Shown in pieces: positions 21,584 to 61,678 of a stretch of DNA of 64,000 bases; the stretch's first letter is position 1, and every line of letters begins with the position of its first letter. Position numbers and translations under genes: made by a program. The DNA comes from Capsulimonas corticalis (GTDB lineage Bacteria; Armatimonadota; Armatimonadia; Armatimonadales; Capsulimonadaceae), in NCBI RefSeq assembly GCF_003574315.2, contig NZ_AP025739.1:3286001-3350000 (forward strand). Direction: 5' to 3'. Below the pieces are notes generated by a model that saw nothing but the letters and a program-made list of their open reading frames with translations, was not told where the DNA came from and ran no database searches.

Positions 21584-22597
21584 TCAAAACCCGGGAATCG
21601 GTCTCATTGCGCCAAATTCAATCTGTCGAGCAATATCCCGGCGTAGCTTCAACAAGGCGACGTCCTTCGCTTTCGCCTCCAGCATCATATCGAAGGATCG
21701 GCGCTTGTCTCCTTCGACAGCCTCCCAAAAGAGCGCGAATTCCATCGGATCGATGAAATCCGAGTGCGCTTTCGTGGGTGGGACCTTCCATTTTTGGACG
21801 GTTTTCGCTCGTCCCGTGTTCCCCGTTTCTTTGGTTTCGACGACATCGAACGACGTGCTGGGGGAGGAGTAGTGGATCTTGGGAATCACGCTCTCCGGCC
21901 ACGTTCCCAGCGCCGCTGTCAATGCGTCTCGCATGGAAACGCCTTCGGGGTTGAGGCAGAAGTGATGAAGATTGTCGAAAATGACGGGGCATCCGGTCGC
22001 TTCGTGAATCTTCATGGTTTCTGAGTGGGAAAAAGAAACGTCGTCATTCTCGACGACCAGGCGGCGTTTCGTCGCCTCCGGTAGATTTTTGTATCTACTG
22101 ATAAAACGTTTTAAACTCTCCTCGCGTTCCCCGTAGACCCCGCCGACATGAGTCACGACGACCGCTTCCGGTCCGCACCCCATGGAATCGAGGATTTGGG
22201 CCTGCGCGTTCAGATCCAGGATCGATTTGCGCGCCACTTCCTCATCCAGGGCGTTCAGGAGAATATACTGCGAGGGATGCAGACTCAGGCGAATATCGTA
22301 CTTGCGCGCGAGCGCGCCCAGCTCCGCAAGCTCGGAGGCCGCCTCGGTGAGCTGATGATGGAACTGCGGGAGATCGGGATGGGTGAGATAGGGCGCGAAG
22401 TCCGACGACATCCGGTACATATGGATATCGCTTTTGTAAAGATAGTGGAAGATCTCGGCGACATATTCGATGGACTGCCGAACGTGAGGCTCGCTCTGCC
22501 AGCGCCGGGCGTCGTTCGATTTCAAGACGGACACCGGGTCCACCGTGGTTTGATTGCCGCCTGCCCCCAATACTTTGACCGCAAATCCCAGCCGCAT
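21584..22597 (-). CDS. uvsE: UV damage endonuclease
   Basis: The 337-aa protein has the UVDE/UvsE TIM-barrel pattern: LGFAVKVLG, HMYRMSSDFAPYLTHPDL, RLSLHPSQYILLN, VVTHVGGVYGEREESLKRF, LVVENDD, PVIFDNLHHFCLN and KIHYSSPS. These supply the metal-binding His, Glu and Asp residues. The enzyme cuts 5' of cyclobutane dimers, 6-4 products and some abasic sites. A BlaI-type operator identical in core to those of the blaI unit lies about 105 bp upstream (22703-22717), between this gene and the abrB-like gene. Only about 150 bp separate the two. Confidence 0.95.
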   Translation of the reverse strand: MRLGFAVKVLGAGGNQTTVDPVSVLKSNDARRWQSEPHVRQSIEYVAEIFHYLYKSDIHMYRMSSDFAPYLTHPDLPQFHHQLTEAASELAELGALARKYDIRLSLHPSQYILLNALDEEVARKSILDLNAQAQILDSMGCGPEAVVVTHVGGVYGEREESLKRFISRYKNLPEATKRRLVVENDDVSFSHSETMKIHEATGCPVIFDNLHHFCLNPEGVSMRDALTAALGTWPESVIPKIHYSSPSTSFDVVETKETGNTGRAKTVQKWKVPPTKAHSDFIDPMEFALFWEAVEGDKRRSFDMMLEAKAKDVALLKLRRDIARQIEFGAMRPIPGF

Positions 22598-22702
22598 CGT
22601 AGCGCCTCTTTTCTGAGTCTCTTATACCCAGAATCGAGGCGCATGGATGGGATGAGAAAAAAAAGTCAGTCTGCTTGATACTTTTAAGATCGTTTCTATG
22701 CA

Positions 22703-22717
22703 GTTACTCTGTGTAAC
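22703..22717 (+). promoter_or_regulatory. BlaI-type operator upstream of uvsE
   Basis: GTTACTCTGTGTAAC, extended to 7-bp arms as CAGTTAC/GTAACTG, matches the other two sites of the cluster (consensus GTTACnyTGTGTAAC). It lies after the abrB-like stop and ahead of uvsE. Confidence 0.75.
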
Positions 22718-22754
22718 TGATAGGGCGCGCAAATGCTTCGCCCTAAAAGTGAAG

Positions 22755-23027
22755 TTAGTCGAGTAGCGCGTCAGAAATCGCCGGAGTCGATGCGACTTCG
22801 GCGATTGGCTTCAAGTCCTCTTGCCATTGCCGCAGATGTCGTCCGAGGGCGGAGGAAGAGATCAATATCAATCCCGCTCCGTAAAATAAACCCGGACTTA
22901 TTCCGCACATTTGCCCGATCAGCAGGCAGTCGCCTGGACGTAAATCGCACCGCTGCCGCACCCAGGATGGAAGTGTGATTTGTCCTTGATCATCCACCAC
23001 TACTATGCTCATTTGTGTTTTCTTCAT
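22755..23027 (-). CDS. AbrB/SpoVT-type regulator, module copy 1
   Basis: The ATG at 23027 gives 90 aa. Residues 1-45 read KKTQMSIVVVDDQGQITLPS then WVRQRCDLRPGDCLLIGQ, the swapped-hairpin AbrB DNA-binding pattern. The C-terminus (ALGRHLRQWQEDLKPIAE) is a predicted amphipathic helix. It follows the barrel-protein gene by 37 nt. A close paralogue (61406-61678) follows the paralogous barrel gene in the same relative order. Both have the run AAGCAGAAG shortly before the ATG. The middle (GLFYGAGLILIS) is unusually hydrophobic for AbrB. Confidence 0.85.
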   Translation of the reverse strand: MKKTQMSIVVVDDQGQITLPSWVRQRCDLRPGDCLLIGQMCGISPGLFYGAGLILISSSALGRHLRQWQEDLKPIAEVASTPAISDALLD

Positions 23028-23064
23028 CGCTTCTGCTTCCGTGATTTCCAATGGCGTTGTCCTT

Positions 23065-23724
23065 TCAAAGCCGAACTCCCAGATCGAAATTGAATCCCGA
23101 GAGATCGAGTCCGCGAACTTTGCCTATTCCTAAATATCGAGCTTCGACAAAAACGCGTTTCCCGACCGTCGCGCCTAAAAAGATGCTGCCGCCCTCCGTA
23201 AATCGAGTTCGAGAGTGGATGTCTTCTGTTGGGACACATAATTCTGTGGCGACGATATTGAGCGTGGCCCCCGCATATGGAATAAACGCAGGGCGATGGG
23301 TTGGATCAAATGCCCTCAATGCCCGGCGGTACTCAATTCCTATAGGCGCGAGAAAGGCGTGATTGTCTCCCGATTTGTTCGAATAGATGCTCAAATCGAA
23401 ACTGAGCTTGCCTTGGGAAAGCGCGCTCTTAACCCCTCCGACGCCCAGACCGATTTTGGTCCATGACCCGCCGAACGTGTCGCGTGAGTGTCCACTCGTG
23501 GGAGTGAAGATACCAAGATTCACGCCGATAGGCGGAAGCTTTCGCTGTTTTTTCGTGGATGGCTGATCCGCTCCATCCTCTTGAGGGGGCTTTGACTCCG
23601 TATCGCCAGTTGCTGTGGGTGTCGAGGATGTGTCCTGAGCCCACGCGGGTGAGGCAATCAAGATGATCAATAGGATCAAAACCGCAGTGGTGAGAGTGTA
23701 TGGGCGAATTCTTAACTTTGACAT
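23065..23724 (-). CDS. Outer-membrane beta-barrel-type protein, module copy 1
   Basis: The ATG at 23724 has GGAGG 4 nt upstream and gives 219 aa. It has a signal peptide (about residues 8-30, ending AWAQ), a polar linker rich in Thr, Pro, Glu and Lys (31-60), then alternating strands: IGVNLGIFTPTS, KIGLGVGGV, KLSFDLSIYSNKSG, APIGIEYRRAL, PYAGATLNIVATELC, SIFLGATVG and FVEARYLGIGKV, ending FDLGVRL. This is a small outer-membrane-barrel pattern with an aromatic/hydrophobic end. A palindrome at 23764-23778 lies 40 bp upstream. Its paralogue at 60078-60785 is highly similar from the barrel onward. Confidence 0.75.
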   Translation of the reverse strand: MSKLRIRPYTLTTAVLILLIILIASPAWAQDTSSTPTATGDTESKPPQEDGADQPSTKKQRKLPPIGVNLGIFTPTSGHSRDTFGGSWTKIGLGVGGVKSALSQGKLSFDLSIYSNKSGDNHAFLAPIGIEYRRALRAFDPTHRPAFIPYAGATLNIVATELCVPTEDIHSRTRFTEGGSIFLGATVGKRVFVEARYLGIGKVRGLDLSGFNFDLGVRL

Positions 23725-23763
23725 GAAACCTCCATTGTTCAATACGGGGCTTTTTAACAATCT

Positions 23764-23778
23764 GTTACACAGCGTAAC
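23764..23778 (-). promoter_or_regulatory. BlaI-type operator upstream of the barrel-protein gene
   Basis: On the minus strand this reads GTTACGCTGTGTAAC, with outer bases making a perfect 7-bp-arm palindrome (CTGTTAC/GTAACAG). It lies between the BlaR1-like gene and the barrel gene, 40 bp from the start codon. It could let the barrel-abrB pair be transcribed separately from blaI-blaR1. Confidence 0.8.
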
Positions 23779-23847
23779 AGATTGTCGCAAAGGCAGAAAG
23801 TTTCATCACTATCATCGGTGATTTGCGGCGTTTGCGTCGCTGGAAGT

Positions 23848-24804
23848 TCACGCGATGATATTGATGAGAACGTAAATCGGAACGAACCAGAGCCAGAAAC
23901 GCGAGGATGGATGATGGTTCGGAGGATTTGCCAGGTCATGGGCGCGCGCCAGCAGATCGTAGGTCTCATTGCGTTCGGTAACGGAAAGAGGCCGGGCGAA
24001 CGCAGATCCGAATTCTAGGGAGGCGGAGCCCCCGCCATGTTCGGCGAAGGCCAGCAGCGCGCGCGTATAGCGGACACGTCCAACGGCTGCGGAGGCCTGG
24101 CGGTCGCAGACGCGCTCCGCCTCAAACTCCGCCTGGGCGAGAATAGGCTTCCAGCCGGGAAAATACCAGAACAGCCGTCGCATTCCGTGAAGCAGAAAAC
24201 GCAGCAAGGGATCACGTCGTCTGGCATGCGCGCGTTCATGCGCGACCACCGCGTCTCGATGTTCGCTGCGCCAGATGGGAGCGCTGATAAAAATTTGTGG
24301 ACGCACCAATCCAAAGGTAAAAGCCGTCCATGCGGTCGTTTCTAGAATCCAGAGGCCCGGGCCGGCGCGTCGGGGCAGACGAGAGATCGCGAGCGCCGCG
24401 CGCGCGTAGTCGAGGATCCCGCCGCCGACCGCGAAGATATGTCCAGAGATTCGAATGCCCATCAAAACGGTGAGCGCCGCGAGCAGCAGGCATGGGGTCT
24501 GATCCGTGACGGCCGTTGGAGGATGACTTAAGTAAATGGGCGGCGCATGTATTCCTTGATGATTAAGCCCGCCGACGCCAACGGAAATGCTATGGATCAG
24601 ATCTTCGCGCCAGTTCGGTTCTACTCGGACCCAGACTTGGCAGGCGACTGGGAAGAAAGCGAGCCACCAAAGAACGCGGCATCGCTGTTCTGGATCGGTC
24701 ATACCCGCGCGCGGGACAACCCAGCGCCAGACGGCGTAGATACACAGCGGCGCGAGTAAGCCCACGAGCAGGCGCAGCTGTGGAAAGAATGGCACAATCA
24801 GCAT
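23848..24804 (-). CDS. BlaR1/MecR1-like M56 membrane metallopeptidase without sensor domain
   Basis: The 318-aa protein has hydrophobic helices at about residues 5-30, 43-60, 104-130 and 155-175. It carries a zinc peptidase motif HERAH at 189-193 and the downstream metal ligand region AEFEAERVCDRQAS near 225-235. A final helix sits at the end (about 300-318). In the family, signal sensing triggers self-cleavage and then cleavage of BlaI. The gene starts 6 nt after the blaI stop. It lacks the roughly 250-residue penicillin-binding sensor of classical BlaR1 (about 600 aa), so the signal is not obviously a beta-lactam. No beta-lactamase is present. Confidence 0.85.
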   Translation of the reverse strand: MLIVPFFPQLRLLVGLLAPLCIYAVWRWVVPRAGMTDPEQRCRVLWWLAFFPVACQVWVRVEPNWREDLIHSISVGVGGLNHQGIHAPPIYLSHPPTAVTDQTPCLLLAALTVLMGIRISGHIFAVGGGILDYARAALAISRLPRRAGPGLWILETTAWTAFTFGLVRPQIFISAPIWRSEHRDAVVAHERAHARRRDPLLRFLLHGMRRLFWYFPGWKPILAQAEFEAERVCDRQASAAVGRVRYTRALLAFAEHGGGSASLEFGSAFARPLSVTERNETYDLLARAHDLANPPNHHPSSRFWLWFVPIYVLINIIA

Positions 24805-24810
24805 TCGTGC

Positions 24811-25209
24811 TTACTCCGATTCGATCTCACTCAGCAGCGCGCGTAATTCTTCCAGCCGCTCCGGCCTTTCTTTGAGAAGATCGGCAAACTGGCTGATTGC
24901 GGTGGACCCAAATCCCGTCAGCAGGCTGTCCAGCATTTTTCGCGATACCTGTGTCTCCAGTGTTTCCTGAGAGATCGCGGCTCGATAGACATAGGCGCGT
25001 TTGTGGAGTGTTCTTAGCAGCAGCTCTTTTTCGACGAGGCGCGCCATGACGGTCTTGACCGTCTCATAAGAGATTTGCGATTCGATACGCTCATGCACTT
25101 CAGAAACTGTGGCTTCGCCTAACTCCCAGACCACCGACATGATCTGCCGTTCCAGCGTCCCCAGGACGCCGTCCAGCCCATTCTTATTGATTTTATACTG
25201 GCTCCACAT
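24811..25209 (-). CDS. BlaI/MecI-family repressor
   Basis: This 132-aa protein has a winged-helix domain (LERQIMSVVWELGEATVSEVHERI, then SYETVKTVMARLVEKELL) and a C-terminal dimerisation helix region (about 85-130). BlaI represses its targets until cleaved by BlaR1-type peptidases. A palindrome GTTACTTTGTGTAAC lies 18 bp upstream, so autoregulation is likely. The same motif stands before the barrel-protein gene and uvsE. The start ATG at 25209 has AGAGGAAAAAGAG just upstream. Confidence 0.93.
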   Translation of the reverse strand: MWSQYKINKNGLDGVLGTLERQIMSVVWELGEATVSEVHERIESQISYETVKTVMARLVEKELLLRTLHKRAYVYRAAISQETLETQVSRKMLDSLLTGFGSTAISQFADLLKERPERLEELRALLSEIESE

Positions 25210-25227
25210 CTCTTTTTCCTCTGGTCC

Positions 25228-25242
25228 GTTACTTTGTGTAAC
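25228..25242 (+). promoter_or_regulatory. BlaI-type operator upstream of blaI
   Basis: GTTACTTTGTGTAAC lies 19-33 bp upstream of the blaI start. Its minus-strand context contains a possible -35 TTAGCA and -10 TAACGG, the latter inside the palindrome, so binding would block the promoter. Confidence 0.8.
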
Positions 25243-25295
25243 AGATATTGCTAATCACTGGGCGCCGATACGGTATGGCGCGGCGGCGCTTTGAT

Positions 25296-25559
25296 TTAAG
25301 AGCGTTTGATACGGCTGCGCCAATGTCGGCGCGCCATCTGAATGGCTCCTAACACCGCGATTGTGACGAGGGAGGGAATCGCCATTCTCCAATAAGAGCC
25401 CATCGCCAAAAGCGCAAAGATGACGGGCGCGGCAAGCCGCGCGAAGAAACCGGGCGACTCTGGATAGAAGCGGCGCGAAAATTGCGGCGTCAACCCCAGA
25501 GCGAAAATTGCTGCGAGGGCGGCGAACATTCCGGCGAATGCAATGTTGAGTGTATCCAT
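25296..25559 (-). CDS. Small membrane protein of unknown function
   Basis: Starting at the ATG 25559 (GAAGG upstream) the product is 87 aa with two or three hydrophobic helices (IAFAGMFAALAAIFALG, FARLAAPVIFALLAMG and MAIPSLVTIAVLGAIQM) and a very basic tail (RRHWRSRIKRS). A longer frame to 25631 would overlap the helicase gene. It sits between the helicase and the BlaI unit on the same strand. Nothing indicates its role. Confidence 0.5.
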   Translation of the reverse strand: MDTLNIAFAGMFAALAAIFALGLTPQFSRRFYPESPGFFARLAAPVIFALLAMGSYWRMAIPSLVTIAVLGAIQMARRHWRSRIKRS

Positions 25560-25612: not shown

Positions 25613-26890
25613 TTAGATAAATCGGCGCCACTCTTCGGGCAGGAACAGTATGTTTTGCGCGGCGCGCAGATAGGCGAGATAAGCGCTGGCCTGCGTCAAA
25701 TTTAACGTGCGCGCGGCGTGTTCGATCCCGGCGCCGACGACGATGAGCTTCGCGTCGGGAAGGTCTCCGCGACGGTTACAGCGGCCGGCCCGGCGGATGA
25801 GGTTTTCGGGCGGGCAGACCGTGCTTATCAGCACGGTGGCGTCGAGGTCGCTGGACTCGACGGCGTTCCCGGTCGTGAGGAGCAAGTAGCCTTCGCCTTC
25901 TTTCTCCAGTTCGCGCAGCTGCGCGTAGATGCGCCGGCGCTCGGAGGGCGGCTGCTCCGTATGGTAAAGAAAGACGCTGTGTGGGTAGGAGCCGGCGAGG
26001 CGCGAGCGCAGCGTGTCGGCGTCGCTGGCGGTTTCGCAGACCGCGAAGACTCGGGAGTTGATATAGTACGAGTGGCGGATCTGCTGCTCGATCTCCGCGA
26101 GCGGATCCTCAGTCATCAGATACTGGATGGTGGGGGCGACGGCGTTCAAAACTCCGGGCGCGTCGATCGCCTCCAGGAAGCTCAATTCTTCCTGGAACGG
26201 CGGCGGCATCGTGCTGCTCGCCACGATCACATCCGTGTCCTGAGCGAACAGGAATTCGACCAGGCGGTGGAAGCGCGAGAAGGCGTCCACCGAGTAGCCA
26301 TGCGCCTCGTCGAAGAAGAAAAGGTCGCGGCGCAGCGCCTCGCCCTCGGCGGGGGCGAACGCCGACGCCAGGCCATGCACGCCGCCGCCGCCGAAGAAGA
26401 GGTCGAGGAATCGATGGAACGTCGTCACGACCAGATCGACATCCGCCTCCAGCGGGTTCATCTCCTCCGTCGGCTCCTCGGTCCCATCCGCGCAGTATCG
26501 CACGCCAAAGCACTCTTCCGCCGCGGCGTCGGGAACGACCACCAGGGTGCGGGGAACTTCGTCGGCGCTTGCCCAGGACTTCAGATAGGGGCCGATGCGG
26601 TAGAGGTAATCATCGAGCGGGGAGCCGTCCTGCGCGATCAGGAACAAGCGGCGAGGCGCGCCGCCTCGCCGTACGCCGAGCGCCGGGATCACCACGGCTT
26701 CCGTTTTTCCGGCCCCGCAGGGCGCGGCCAGCAGGTATCCCGCGTCGCTTTCCTGCTGAGACAATTTTTCGTAGAGCTCCGCCTGCCATTCGCGCGCGCG
26801 GGGCAGGAAACCGGCGCTGCTGAGCCGGTAGGAAGCGCTGGCGACGCTGCCTGCGTCGATCGAGGTCGCGAGTTCAGGGGACATAGCCAT
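25613..26890 (-). CDS. Cas3-like DEAH helicase without Cas neighbours
   Basis: This 425-aa superfamily-2 helicase has Walker A APCGAGKTEA (residues 56-65), Walker B DEAH (194-197), a motif III equivalent ASSTMP (about 224-229), a late motif V region TGNAVESSDLDATVLIST and motif VI IRRAGRCNRRG (about 364-375). The wording of motifs I, V and VI is that of Cas3-type helicases. There is no HD nuclease domain, no other cas gene and no repeat array here. The upstream neighbour is pyrE. It may be a defence or housekeeping helicase; its role is open. Confidence 0.8.
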   Translation of the reverse strand: MAMSPELATSIDAGSVASASYRLSSAGFLPRAREWQAELYEKLSQQESDAGYLLAAPCGAGKTEAVVIPALGVRRGGAPRRLFLIAQDGSPLDDYLYRIGPYLKSWASADEVPRTLVVVPDAAAEECFGVRYCADGTEEPTEEMNPLEADVDLVVTTFHRFLDLFFGGGGVHGLASAFAPAEGEALRRDLFFFDEAHGYSVDAFSRFHRLVEFLFAQDTDVIVASSTMPPPFQEELSFLEAIDAPGVLNAVAPTIQYLMTEDPLAEIEQQIRHSYYINSRVFAVCETASDADTLRSRLAGSYPHSVFLYHTEQPPSERRRIYAQLRELEKEGEGYLLLTTGNAVESSDLDATVLISTVCPPENLIRRAGRCNRRGDLPDAKLIVVGAGIEHAARTLNLTQASAYLAYLRAAQNILFLPEEWRRFI

Positions 26891-59328: not shown

Positions 59329-59372
59329 TTGACAGCGGGCGCGGCGTGCTGGTATCTTGTTAACACTGTTAA
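59329..59372 (+). promoter_or_regulatory. TetR gene promoter with palindromic operator
   Basis: TTGACA (59329-59334) and TATCTT (59353-59358) are 18 nt apart. TTAACACTGTTAA (59360-59372), a perfect 6-1-6 palindrome, starts right after the -10, where a TetR repressor would block the start site. Confidence 0.75.
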
Positions 59373-59389
59373 TTAAAAGAGTGGTGTTA

Positions 59390-59998
59390 ATGTCTTCTGT
59401 CGAACGAAGAGAAGAAGAGCGGGAGAATTTGAGACGCGCGATCCTCACCGCGTCTCGGGAGTTGCTGGCGACTGAGGACATGGAGAAGGTTTCCATGCGG
59501 CGGATCGCCGAAAAGATTCGCTATTCCCCCACGACGATTTATCTGCACTTCAAGGATAAAGGCGAGCTGCTCGACGCTCTCGCCGAAGAGGGATACGCGC
59601 TGCTGGCGGAGCGCTTGGCGGCGGCCGCCTCCGGCGGAGGCGAGCCCGTGGAGCGCTTGCGAAGGATTGCGGACGCCTATATTGCCTTTGCGATGGAGTA
59701 TAAGCAGCACTATCGCTTGATGTTCCAATATGGCGAGGGGCCGAGTATCTACGGGGAATCGGTGAAACGCAAATTGTGGACCCGACAAATCAACGAAACT
59801 TTGGCCGCCGTGATCGAAGCCGCGCGCGGTCCGGCGCCGACGCTGGACGCGGCGGCGATTCGCTCGGTTCGGCACGTCCTCTGGGCGCACATGCACGGCG
59901 CGGTCTCACTGGTTCTCGCCGGCCGTGTCAAAGACCAGGAAATCCTGAAGCAGTCGTCGGAAACCGCGATCGCGGGCCTGCTGGCGCGGCTGCAATAA
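59390..59998 (+). CDS. TetR-family regulator
   Basis: The ATG at 59390 gives 202 aa. The N-terminal DNA-binding domain (LRRAILTASRELLATEDMEKVSMRRIAEKIRYSPTTIYLHFKDKGELLDAL) is followed by a TetR C-terminal ligand domain (AYIAFAMEYKQHYRLMFQYGEGP). A palindrome overlaps its promoter, so autorepression is likely. The target beyond itself is not evident; the next genes start 80 bp downstream. Confidence 0.9.
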   Translation: MSSVERREEERENLRRAILTASRELLATEDMEKVSMRRIAEKIRYSPTTIYLHFKDKGELLDALAEEGYALLAERLAAAASGGGEPVERLRRIADAYIAFAMEYKQHYRLMFQYGEGPSIYGESVKRKLWTRQINETLAAVIEAARGPAPTLDAAAIRSVRHVLWAHMHGAVSLVLAGRVKDQEILKQSSETAIAGLLARLQ

Positions 59999-60000
59999 TA

Positions 60001-60021
60001 CGCCGCCCACAATGGGCGGCG
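60001..60021 (+). terminator. Hairpin after the TetR gene
   Basis: CGCCGCCCA and TGGGCGGCG flank CAA immediately after the stop codon. No T tract follows beyond ATTTG, so termination is only likely. Confidence 0.55.
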
Positions 60022-60077
60022 ATCTGTCATTTGTATTGCAATAAGAACAAAAACATCATATACAAAAGGATTTCTGG

Positions 60078-60785
60078 ATGCCTATTACTGTCACAGGTCA
60101 CCTGTGTTCATTTGTCAGCGTGTTCGCGTTTGCCGCTGCGCCGGTATTCGCGCAGGATGTTTCTCCGCCGCCTAAGGCGCCATTGTCTCCGACTGTTTTG
60201 CCGCCAGGGCCATCGGCTTCTCTGGATGGCGCGGCGCATTCCTCGGACGCCGCGACCATGCCGAGCGCTGTGGATACGCCGGAGGCGTCGAAGCCGAAAA
60301 AACATCATTCCTTTCCTCGCATCGGCGTGGATTATGGGACGTTCGCGCCGGCGGACCACCGGACGAAGGACGCGTTTGGAGGAGCCTGGACAAGTATCGG
60401 TCTGGGAATCGGCGCGGTGAAGCAGCCGCTGTCGCATGGCAAACTCAGTTTCGATCTGAGTATCTACTCCAAGAAATCAGGGGATACGCACGCGTTTATG
60501 GCGCCGGTCGGCATCGAATATCGGCGGGCCCTGATCCCATACGCGCCGGGACATCGCCCTTCGCTGCTGCCGTATGCGGGACTGACGCTTGACTATGTGG
60601 CGACTGACCTGTGCGTCCCCAAGGACGACGTTCATTCGCGGTTTCGTTTTACTGAGGGCGGCAGCGTGTTTTTGGGGGCGACGGTCGGCGGGCGCGGGTT
60701 TGTCGAGTGGCGATACCTCGGGATTGGCAAGGTTCGCGGGTTCAATCTGTCGGGAGTTAAGTTCGATGCGGGAATCCGCTTTTAA
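60078..60785 (+). CDS. Outer-membrane beta-barrel-type protein, module copy 2
   Basis: The ATG at 60078 (AAAGGA upstream) gives 235 aa. It has a signal peptide (ending PVFAQ near residue 26), a Pro/Ser-rich linker and a barrel region closely matching the 23065-23724 gene: IGVDYGTFAPADHR, GKLSFDLSIYSKKSG, APVGIEYRRALIPYAPGHRP, and the ending FDAGIRF. It starts the second copy of the barrel-AbrB module. No BlaI-type palindrome is seen upstream, unlike copy 1. Confidence 0.75.
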   Translation: MPITVTGHLCSFVSVFAFAAAPVFAQDVSPPPKAPLSPTVLPPGPSASLDGAAHSSDAATMPSAVDTPEASKPKKHHSFPRIGVDYGTFAPADHRTKDAFGGAWTSIGLGIGAVKQPLSHGKLSFDLSIYSKKSGDTHAFMAPVGIEYRRALIPYAPGHRPSLLPYAGLTLDYVATDLCVPKDDVHSRFRFTEGGSVFLGATVGGRGFVEWRYLGIGKVRGFNLSGVKFDAGIRF

Positions 60786-60826
60786 TCGGGGGCTGATATC
60801 GAAGTATGAAAAAGGATCAATCACAT

Positions 60827-61369
60827 ATGGATACAAAGACACTTCTGTTAATCGCGTGCGCTGGCGCGCTGCTGGCGGGGGCGGCCTGCCCACCCGCAGG
60901 CGCTATCGGCGTTTCGGCGGCGCGTCAGGCGATCCAAGCCAGCTATCGCCGTTTCACAGTCGCGGAGTCTCGTTTGAGCTATCCTCCGATCAAGGATGCT
61001 TCCGAAGCATTTCTTGCCCCGGACTTCACGCTGCATACGGCGACCGGGCACACGCTGAACCTTGGCGAATTCCTGAAAGAAATGGAATTGACCACACATG
61101 AAGTCGTTAAGGTTCACGAAGATCGGTTCCAGACGACTGGGCTCAGGCGTCAGGGGAGCACAATCACGGAGACCGGAATCTATACCTTCGTCCGGAAGGC
61201 GCTGGATGTGGACGCCTATTACGGCAAGAAGAATCTGCCGCATCTTGTCAGTGAACGCATGCCCTATCGGGCGATATGGATTCTTATAGACGGCCGCTGG
61301 CGCCTTCGGACGCTCAGCTTGCTCAGTGATAAGCTGGTTGTCGACGGGAAGCCGCATCCCGTGGTGTAG
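60827..61369 (+). CDS. Exported SnoaL/DUF4440-like protein
   Basis: The ATG at 60827 (AAGGA 10 nt upstream) gives 180 aa with a signal peptide (MDTKTLLLIACAGALLAGAAC, perhaps a lipoprotein cysteine at 21). A cone-like domain follows: DASEAFLAPDFTLHTATGHTLNLGEFLKEM and ITETGIYTFVRKALDVDAYYG, YRAIWILIDGRWRLRTLSLL. It sits between the barrel and AbrB genes of copy 2, a place empty in copy 1. The role is unknown. Confidence 0.7.
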   Translation: MDTKTLLLIACAGALLAGAACPPAGAIGVSAARQAIQASYRRFTVAESRLSYPPIKDASEAFLAPDFTLHTATGHTLNLGEFLKEMELTTHEVVKVHEDRFQTTGLRRQGSTITETGIYTFVRKALDVDAYYGKKNLPHLVSERMPYRAIWILIDGRWRLRTLSLLSDKLVVDGKPHPVV

Positions 61370-61405
61370 CCGGCCGATCGGCGCCGCTCCGCGAAAGCAG
61401 AAGTC

Positions 61406-61678
61406 ATGAAGAATGCGAAAATGAGTCTGATGACGGTCGACGATGAGGGACGAGTCGCGCTGCCCGAATGGGTTCGCGGAACCTGCGATTTGAGGCCGGG
61501 AGATCAATTATTGATCGGCCAGAATTATGGGTCCGCCGGAGGGTTGTTTTTGGGAATGGGACTGATCCTGATTTCACCGTCAGCCATCGGGCGTCGATTC
61601 CGCCGTCTCGAGGAAACTCTGCGCCGGATCGATCCCGGCGGCGCCAGTGCGGCGCCATTCGACGATCAAGAAATCTAA
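61406..61678 (+). CDS. AbrB/SpoVT-type regulator, module copy 2
   Basis: This 90-aa protein aligns with that at 22755-23027 along its length (MKNAKMSLMTVDDEGRVALP, WVRGTCDLRPGDQLLIGQN, GLILISPSAIGRRFRRLEETL). It has the same upstream run AAGCAGAAG and ATG-AAG start. Its stop overlaps the convergent TMEM175 gene by four bases. It is expected to bind DNA as a dimer; targets may include its own operon. Confidence 0.85.
   Translation: MKNAKMSLMTVDDEGRVALPEWVRGTCDLRPGDQLLIGQNYGSAGGLFLGMGLILISPSAIGRRFRRLEETLRRIDPGGASAAPFDDQEI

Follow-up and report, generated by a model that had tools for sequence, protein, structure and literature searches.

Is a DNA-repair gene, uvsE, placed under the same repressor as a neighbouring BlaI/BlaR1-like unit in Capsulimonas corticalis? 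The window (the whole stretch of 64,000 nucleotides analysed here, 3,286,001-3,350,000 of the single-contig genome of 7,645,051 bases) contains five genes transcribed on the minus strand in the order blaI, M56, barrel gene, abrB and uvsE (Table 1). The first-pass annotation had placed copies of GTTACnyTGTGTAAC, with 13 of 15 positions identical, before uvsE, the barrel/abrB pair and blaI. Both the coordinates and the identity were recovered, and each copy lies in an intergenic gap of one same-strand cluster. One correction is needed: as all five genes sit on the minus strand, uvsE closes a run of genes that point the same way. Gaps measure 6 nt between blaI and M56, 123 nt between M56 and the barrel gene, and 157 nt between abrB and uvsE.

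Table 1. Position of the genes and sequence elements of the cluster in the window.
Feature	Position	Strand	Description
uvsE	21584..22597	-	UV damage endonuclease, 337 aa; TIGR00629 E 6e-45, above cut-off; PF03851 above cut-off
Promoter-like element ATTCTGGGTATAAG	22621..22634	-	Before uvsE; identical in sister Capsulimonas, partly kept in family
Putative operator 1	22703..22717 (extended 22699-22721)	.	abrB-uvsE gap; GTTACTCTGTGTAAC; centre 113 nt upstream of uvsE ATG
GC-rich hairpin, TAGGGCG...CGCCCTA	22721..22745	-	3' of abrB; no adjacent T tract; scan calls no terminator
abrB	22755..23027	-	AbrB-type DNA-binding protein; TIGR01439 E 5e-7
Barrel gene	23065..23724	-	Outer-membrane 8-strand beta-barrel protein, 219 aa, predicted N-terminal signal helix
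Putative operator 2	23764..23778	.	Before barrel gene; GTTACGCTGTGTAAC on minus strand; centre 47 nt upstream of barrel ATG
M56	23848..24804	-	BlaR1-like membrane metalloprotease, 318 aa, without sensor domain; PF05569 E 1e-11 (above cut-off)
blaI	24811..25209	-	BlaI/MecI-family repressor, 132 aa; PF03965 E 5e-26
Putative operator 3	25228..25242 (extended 25225-25246)	.	Before blaI; GTTACTTTGTGTAAC; centre 26 nt upstream of blaI ATG

The BlaI protein is covered over its whole length by the Penicillinase_R winged-helix domain (PF03965 positions 1-114 of 115). It aligns with the Staphylococcus aureus BlaI structure 1sd4 (E 2e-9), and in this alignment the N101/F102 cleavage position of the S. 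aureus protein corresponds to Q/F. In the M56 protein, HERAH (189-193), E230 and D234 are invariant in an alignment of 13 sequences. Its predicted model, of moderate confidence (pLDDT 70.5), finds S. aureus BlaR1 (8exq) as best PDB fold match. No penicillin-binding sensor domain was detected at the C-terminus: the M56 domain is the sole match and the chain ends in a terminal helix, after 318 aa, versus 554 residues for the S. aureus BlaR1 chain. Judged from sequence and model, this protein resembles the protease part of BlaR1, yet is not a beta-lactam receptor. Since the penicillin-sensing domain is missing, sensing of beta-lactams or of the cell wall cannot be assumed. The modelled barrel protein has eight strands (pLDDT 75.7) and matches NspA, OmpW and OmpA in structure. 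For abrB, the start at 23027 is likelier than the one at 23051, and was chosen by match to a paralogue at 61406. UvsE has the conserved H, E, D and K columns (alignment of 11) found in the UvdE TIM barrel.

The similarity between the three sites exceeds the 15-mer initially noticed. It extends to ATCWGTTAC-N5-GTAAC, and all three copies match ATCWGTTACNYNNNGTAAC in one orientation. An unprompted repeat search also recovered them as a single 22-nt family. The sites before blaI and uvsE agree at 18 of 20 bases (TATCWGTTACACARAGTAAC), and operator 2 has perfect 11-nt arms, CAATCTGTTAC and GTAACAGATTG (23758-23784). Intergenic sequence accounts for about 15% of the stretch from 22.6 to 25.3 kb, yet 3 sites out of 3 fall in it. 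A sigma-70 promoter scan showed no clear promoter overlapping any of the three sites, unlike at most paralogous blaI promoters, a point against the operator reading.

The genome-wide motif search, proposed as a check by the first-pass annotation, was done by pattern searches on all 7,645,051 bases. The exact extended form is confined to the three intergenic gaps of this cluster. The shorter GTTACN5GTAAC occurs four times, three of them in the cluster; GTTACCGGCGGTAAC, at 4,241,921, has only the arms in common with the motif. The next-best match to the extended form, with one mismatch, lies at 1,817,105 within a 606-aa ORF. The sole 15-mer site with one mismatch, at 960055, touches a small ORF at its end, ahead of a transporter gene, and it was left uncounted because, by our own estimate, the number is about that expected from composition. 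When up to 3 mismatches were allowed over the whole genome, the motif was not enriched relative to a reversed control (218 versus 542, and 152 versus 218), and of 13 near-matches examined in their context, most fell in ORFs. A scattered regulon was thus rejected: looser matching gives no excess over the control, and the motif is particular to this cluster.

As an alternative to operators, the dyads might be repeats arisen by chance, hairpins in RNA or the ends of mobile elements. Two copies do lie near the cassette edges, and the barrel copy (operator 2) can form a 13-bp RNA stem. Such an origin is nevertheless highly improbable: the exact motif is found only in three gaps of 7.6 Mb, the third copy is inside the cassette, and none of 30 first-order Markov simulations of the window produced an AT-rich-arm dyad three times within 3 kb. 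The hairpins moreover have no T tract, on which ground the reading of the dyads as intrinsic terminators was rejected.

The three dyads very probably serve the local BlaI-family repressor as operators. Several observations lend good, inferential support to the earlier proposal that the sites share a BlaI-type repressor: the autoregulatory position of one site, the family-typical TTAC/GTAA dyad, the dyads of paralogues and the confinement to the locus. Operator 3 stands before blaI at the position expected for autorepression. Immediately upstream of seven of the genome's eight other blaI genes stands a perfect dyad with arms of at least 6 bases; the dyad of the remaining gene is imperfect. These dyads are of the forms GTTTACC-NN-GGTAAAC, TGCTAA-N4-TTAGCA, AATCTACC-NN-GGTAGATT and similar. 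Paralogues with HSTVQT-type recognition helices have half-sites TTTACC or TCTACC, those with SYSAVRA-like helices TGCTAA or TGCGAA. In relatives whose BlaI is about 40-44% identical and has the helix AYTT..MTT, the gene is preceded by a CTACTA...TAGTAG dyad that overlaps the -10. Since these relatives carry such dyads, the half-site seems to track the recognition helix, and the BlaI of the window has a helix (SYETVKTVMARL) and a half-site of its own. This apparent correspondence between helix and half-site is a correlation.

The AbrB protein encoded inside the cluster was also considered as the binder, AbrB-type proteins being DNA-binding. This is very improbable: the BlaI paralogues usually have a dyad directly before their gene, and no such site accompanies the paralogous barrel-AbrB unit at 60078-61678, an absence which led us to reject AbrB. 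That unit belongs to a plus-strand stretch of the window (59357-61678) in which a TetR gene is followed by a second barrel gene, a gene whose 187-aa product matches no Pfam family, and a further AbrB gene. The second barrel is 57% identical to the first (62% over the local match). As barrel and AbrB recur there behind TetR, barrel-abrB appears to be a module under two different regulators.

Whether uvsE responds to the BlaI repressor is a separate matter. The element ATTCTGGGTATAAG precedes the start of uvsE by about 35 nt both in the window and in the sister Capsulimonas sp. RYN_270. It is located between operator 1 and uvsE, the operator being some 70-77 nt upstream of it. Weaker forms, TGGGTACAAC and TGGGGTACAAAC, are found upstream of uvsE in the family. 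More generally, a TGGG(G)TAYRA-type element, candidate promoter or operator, occurs some 30-40 nt before uvsE across the family (upstream regions L057, L058 and L059). Operator 1 is therefore in a poor place for simple steric repression of uvsE.

RYN_270 has a uvsE 93% identical over the part present. Between uvsE and a small ORF and helicase, it carries a zinc-type oxidoreductase gene (L056 593-1678); no blaI, M56, barrel, abrB or operator was found in this slot. The interval from uvsE to the DEAD helicase behaves as a variable slot: it holds the BlaI cassette in the window (22640-25310), and in G004 (L057 10288-13992) a gene for a 1234-aa repeat-containing (TPR-like) protein. A uvsE joined to BlaI/M56 was absent from the 290 other armatimonad genomes of the 291 searched, and among 80 uvsE loci of many phyla, with flanks of up to 6 kb, none had BlaI or M56 convincingly beside uvsE. 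As the linkage is present in this one genome only, the uvsE site has no footprint conservation. Because the sister lacks the cassette but shares ATTCTGGGTATAAG, the cassette seems to have been inserted beside a uvsE with its own pre-existing promoter. With the linkage absent elsewhere as well, we infer that a self-contained BlaI/M56 regulon was inserted next to uvsE.

The operators may then be real BlaI operators while uvsE is no true target, being transcribed from its own conserved proximal promoter. Operator 1 would in that case serve as an auxiliary site, for looping or as a roadblock, or be left over from the edge of the cassette. We hold this account to be a serious but minority possibility. 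The RYN_270 configuration, the different genes found in the uvsE-helicase interval of relatives, the distance of the operator from the uvsE start codon and the low GC content of the cassette (rank 7 of 246 in the window) all speak for it. Against it, no co-directional gene other than uvsE lies directly downstream of operator 1, and the near identity of the blaI and uvsE sites argues for a maintained function.

The best explanation of the whole is, in our view, a local BlaI regulon of the blaI-M56 and barrel/abrB units, with a site before uvsE (probability of about 0.55). A BlaI dimer bound to GTTAC-N5-GTAAC would repress its own blaI-M56 unit and the barrel/abrB unit, and would also sit in the gap before uvsE. 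An envelope signal would prompt the M56 protease to inactivate BlaI, by cleavage or in some other way, and all units would then be released together. At uvsE, the site would most likely gate a distal promoter or read-through from barrel-abrB, such distal control adding to the lineage-typical promoter nearer the gene. Operator 1 could still act in this way, since no clear terminator separates abrB from uvsE.

The first-pass annotation had remarked that placing DNA repair under an envelope-type proteolytic sensor would be unexpected. The operator is indeed present, but the link to uvsE is weaker than the other two, because the operator is 113 nt from the start (26 and 47 nt for the others), a conserved promoter-like element stands between them, and the linkage is absent from relatives and other phyla. 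We give about even odds to a real effect of BlaI on uvsE transcription. DNA-repair control by an envelope protease is possible, the evidence for it being a single operator, in one genome, that lies awkwardly far from its gene. It is more speculative to suppose that UvsE has been recruited to the BlaI/M56 regulon, so that a protease sensing envelope damage would derepress barrel and UvsE as one non-SOS surface-damage response; we regard this as rather doubtful. If uvsE does respond, DNA repair would be coupled to a protease of the envelope; in a full-text literature search, no paper reported a UV endonuclease under BlaI control.

The cluster resembles the BlaI/BlaR1 and MecI/MecR1 systems of S. 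aureus and Bacillus licheniformis by its repressor family, its adjacent genes and its several probable TTAC/GTAA dyad operators, and its M56 protein shares with BlaR1 and MecR1 the HExxH...E motif and the predicted BlaR1 fold. Unlike these systems, it has no penicillin-binding sensor domain and no beta-lactamase or PBP2a target; its probable targets are instead an outer-membrane barrel, AbrB and perhaps uvsE. Half-sites of the BlaI/MecI family are four nucleotides apart, those of the window five. A set of three operators is also known for B. licheniformis BlaI (PMC3305447). Clostridium thermocellum BlaI_0696 recognizes inverted repeats five nucleotides apart, as in the window, and controls only three operons (PMC8457756). 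BlaI_0696 and BlaI_1845 have small local regulons with M56 (BlaR1) genes in the operon, as proposed here, but a GTCTAT half-site and paired motifs per promoter, and no DNA-repair gene is named among their targets (PMC8457756).

Armatimonadota commonly have BlaI/M56 pairs that lack a beta-lactam sensor, and for most of these no targets are known. Other such pairs (e.g. in G268, G271 and G041) have, like that of the window, a short M56 protein without sensor domain and an autoregulatory dyad; unlike it, they have the CTACTA/TAGTAG dyad and the AYTT..MTT helix. None of the pairs of relatives listed had barrel, abrB or uvsE beside it, the Pfam matches of their neighbours corresponding to unrelated genes. 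The clear operator code and the closed set of three target gaps make the regulon of the present cluster directly testable. In Deinococcus, the metalloprotease IrrE (PprI) relieves the repressor DdrO of DNA-repair genes, much as may happen here, but there a cytoplasmic protease and a repressor of unrelated families are involved.

Two further observations concern the genome and the locus. The nine BlaI genes of C. corticalis, nearly all with their own helix-tracking dyad type, offer a ready data set for deciphering the BlaI operator code. Upstream of the cluster, a stand-alone Cas3-like DEAD helicase gene (25613-26890, minus strand) lies beside pyrE, other cas genes being absent from the stretch read; the helicase-pyrE arrangement is kept in the sister Capsulimonas, and the helicase alone is also present in G004.
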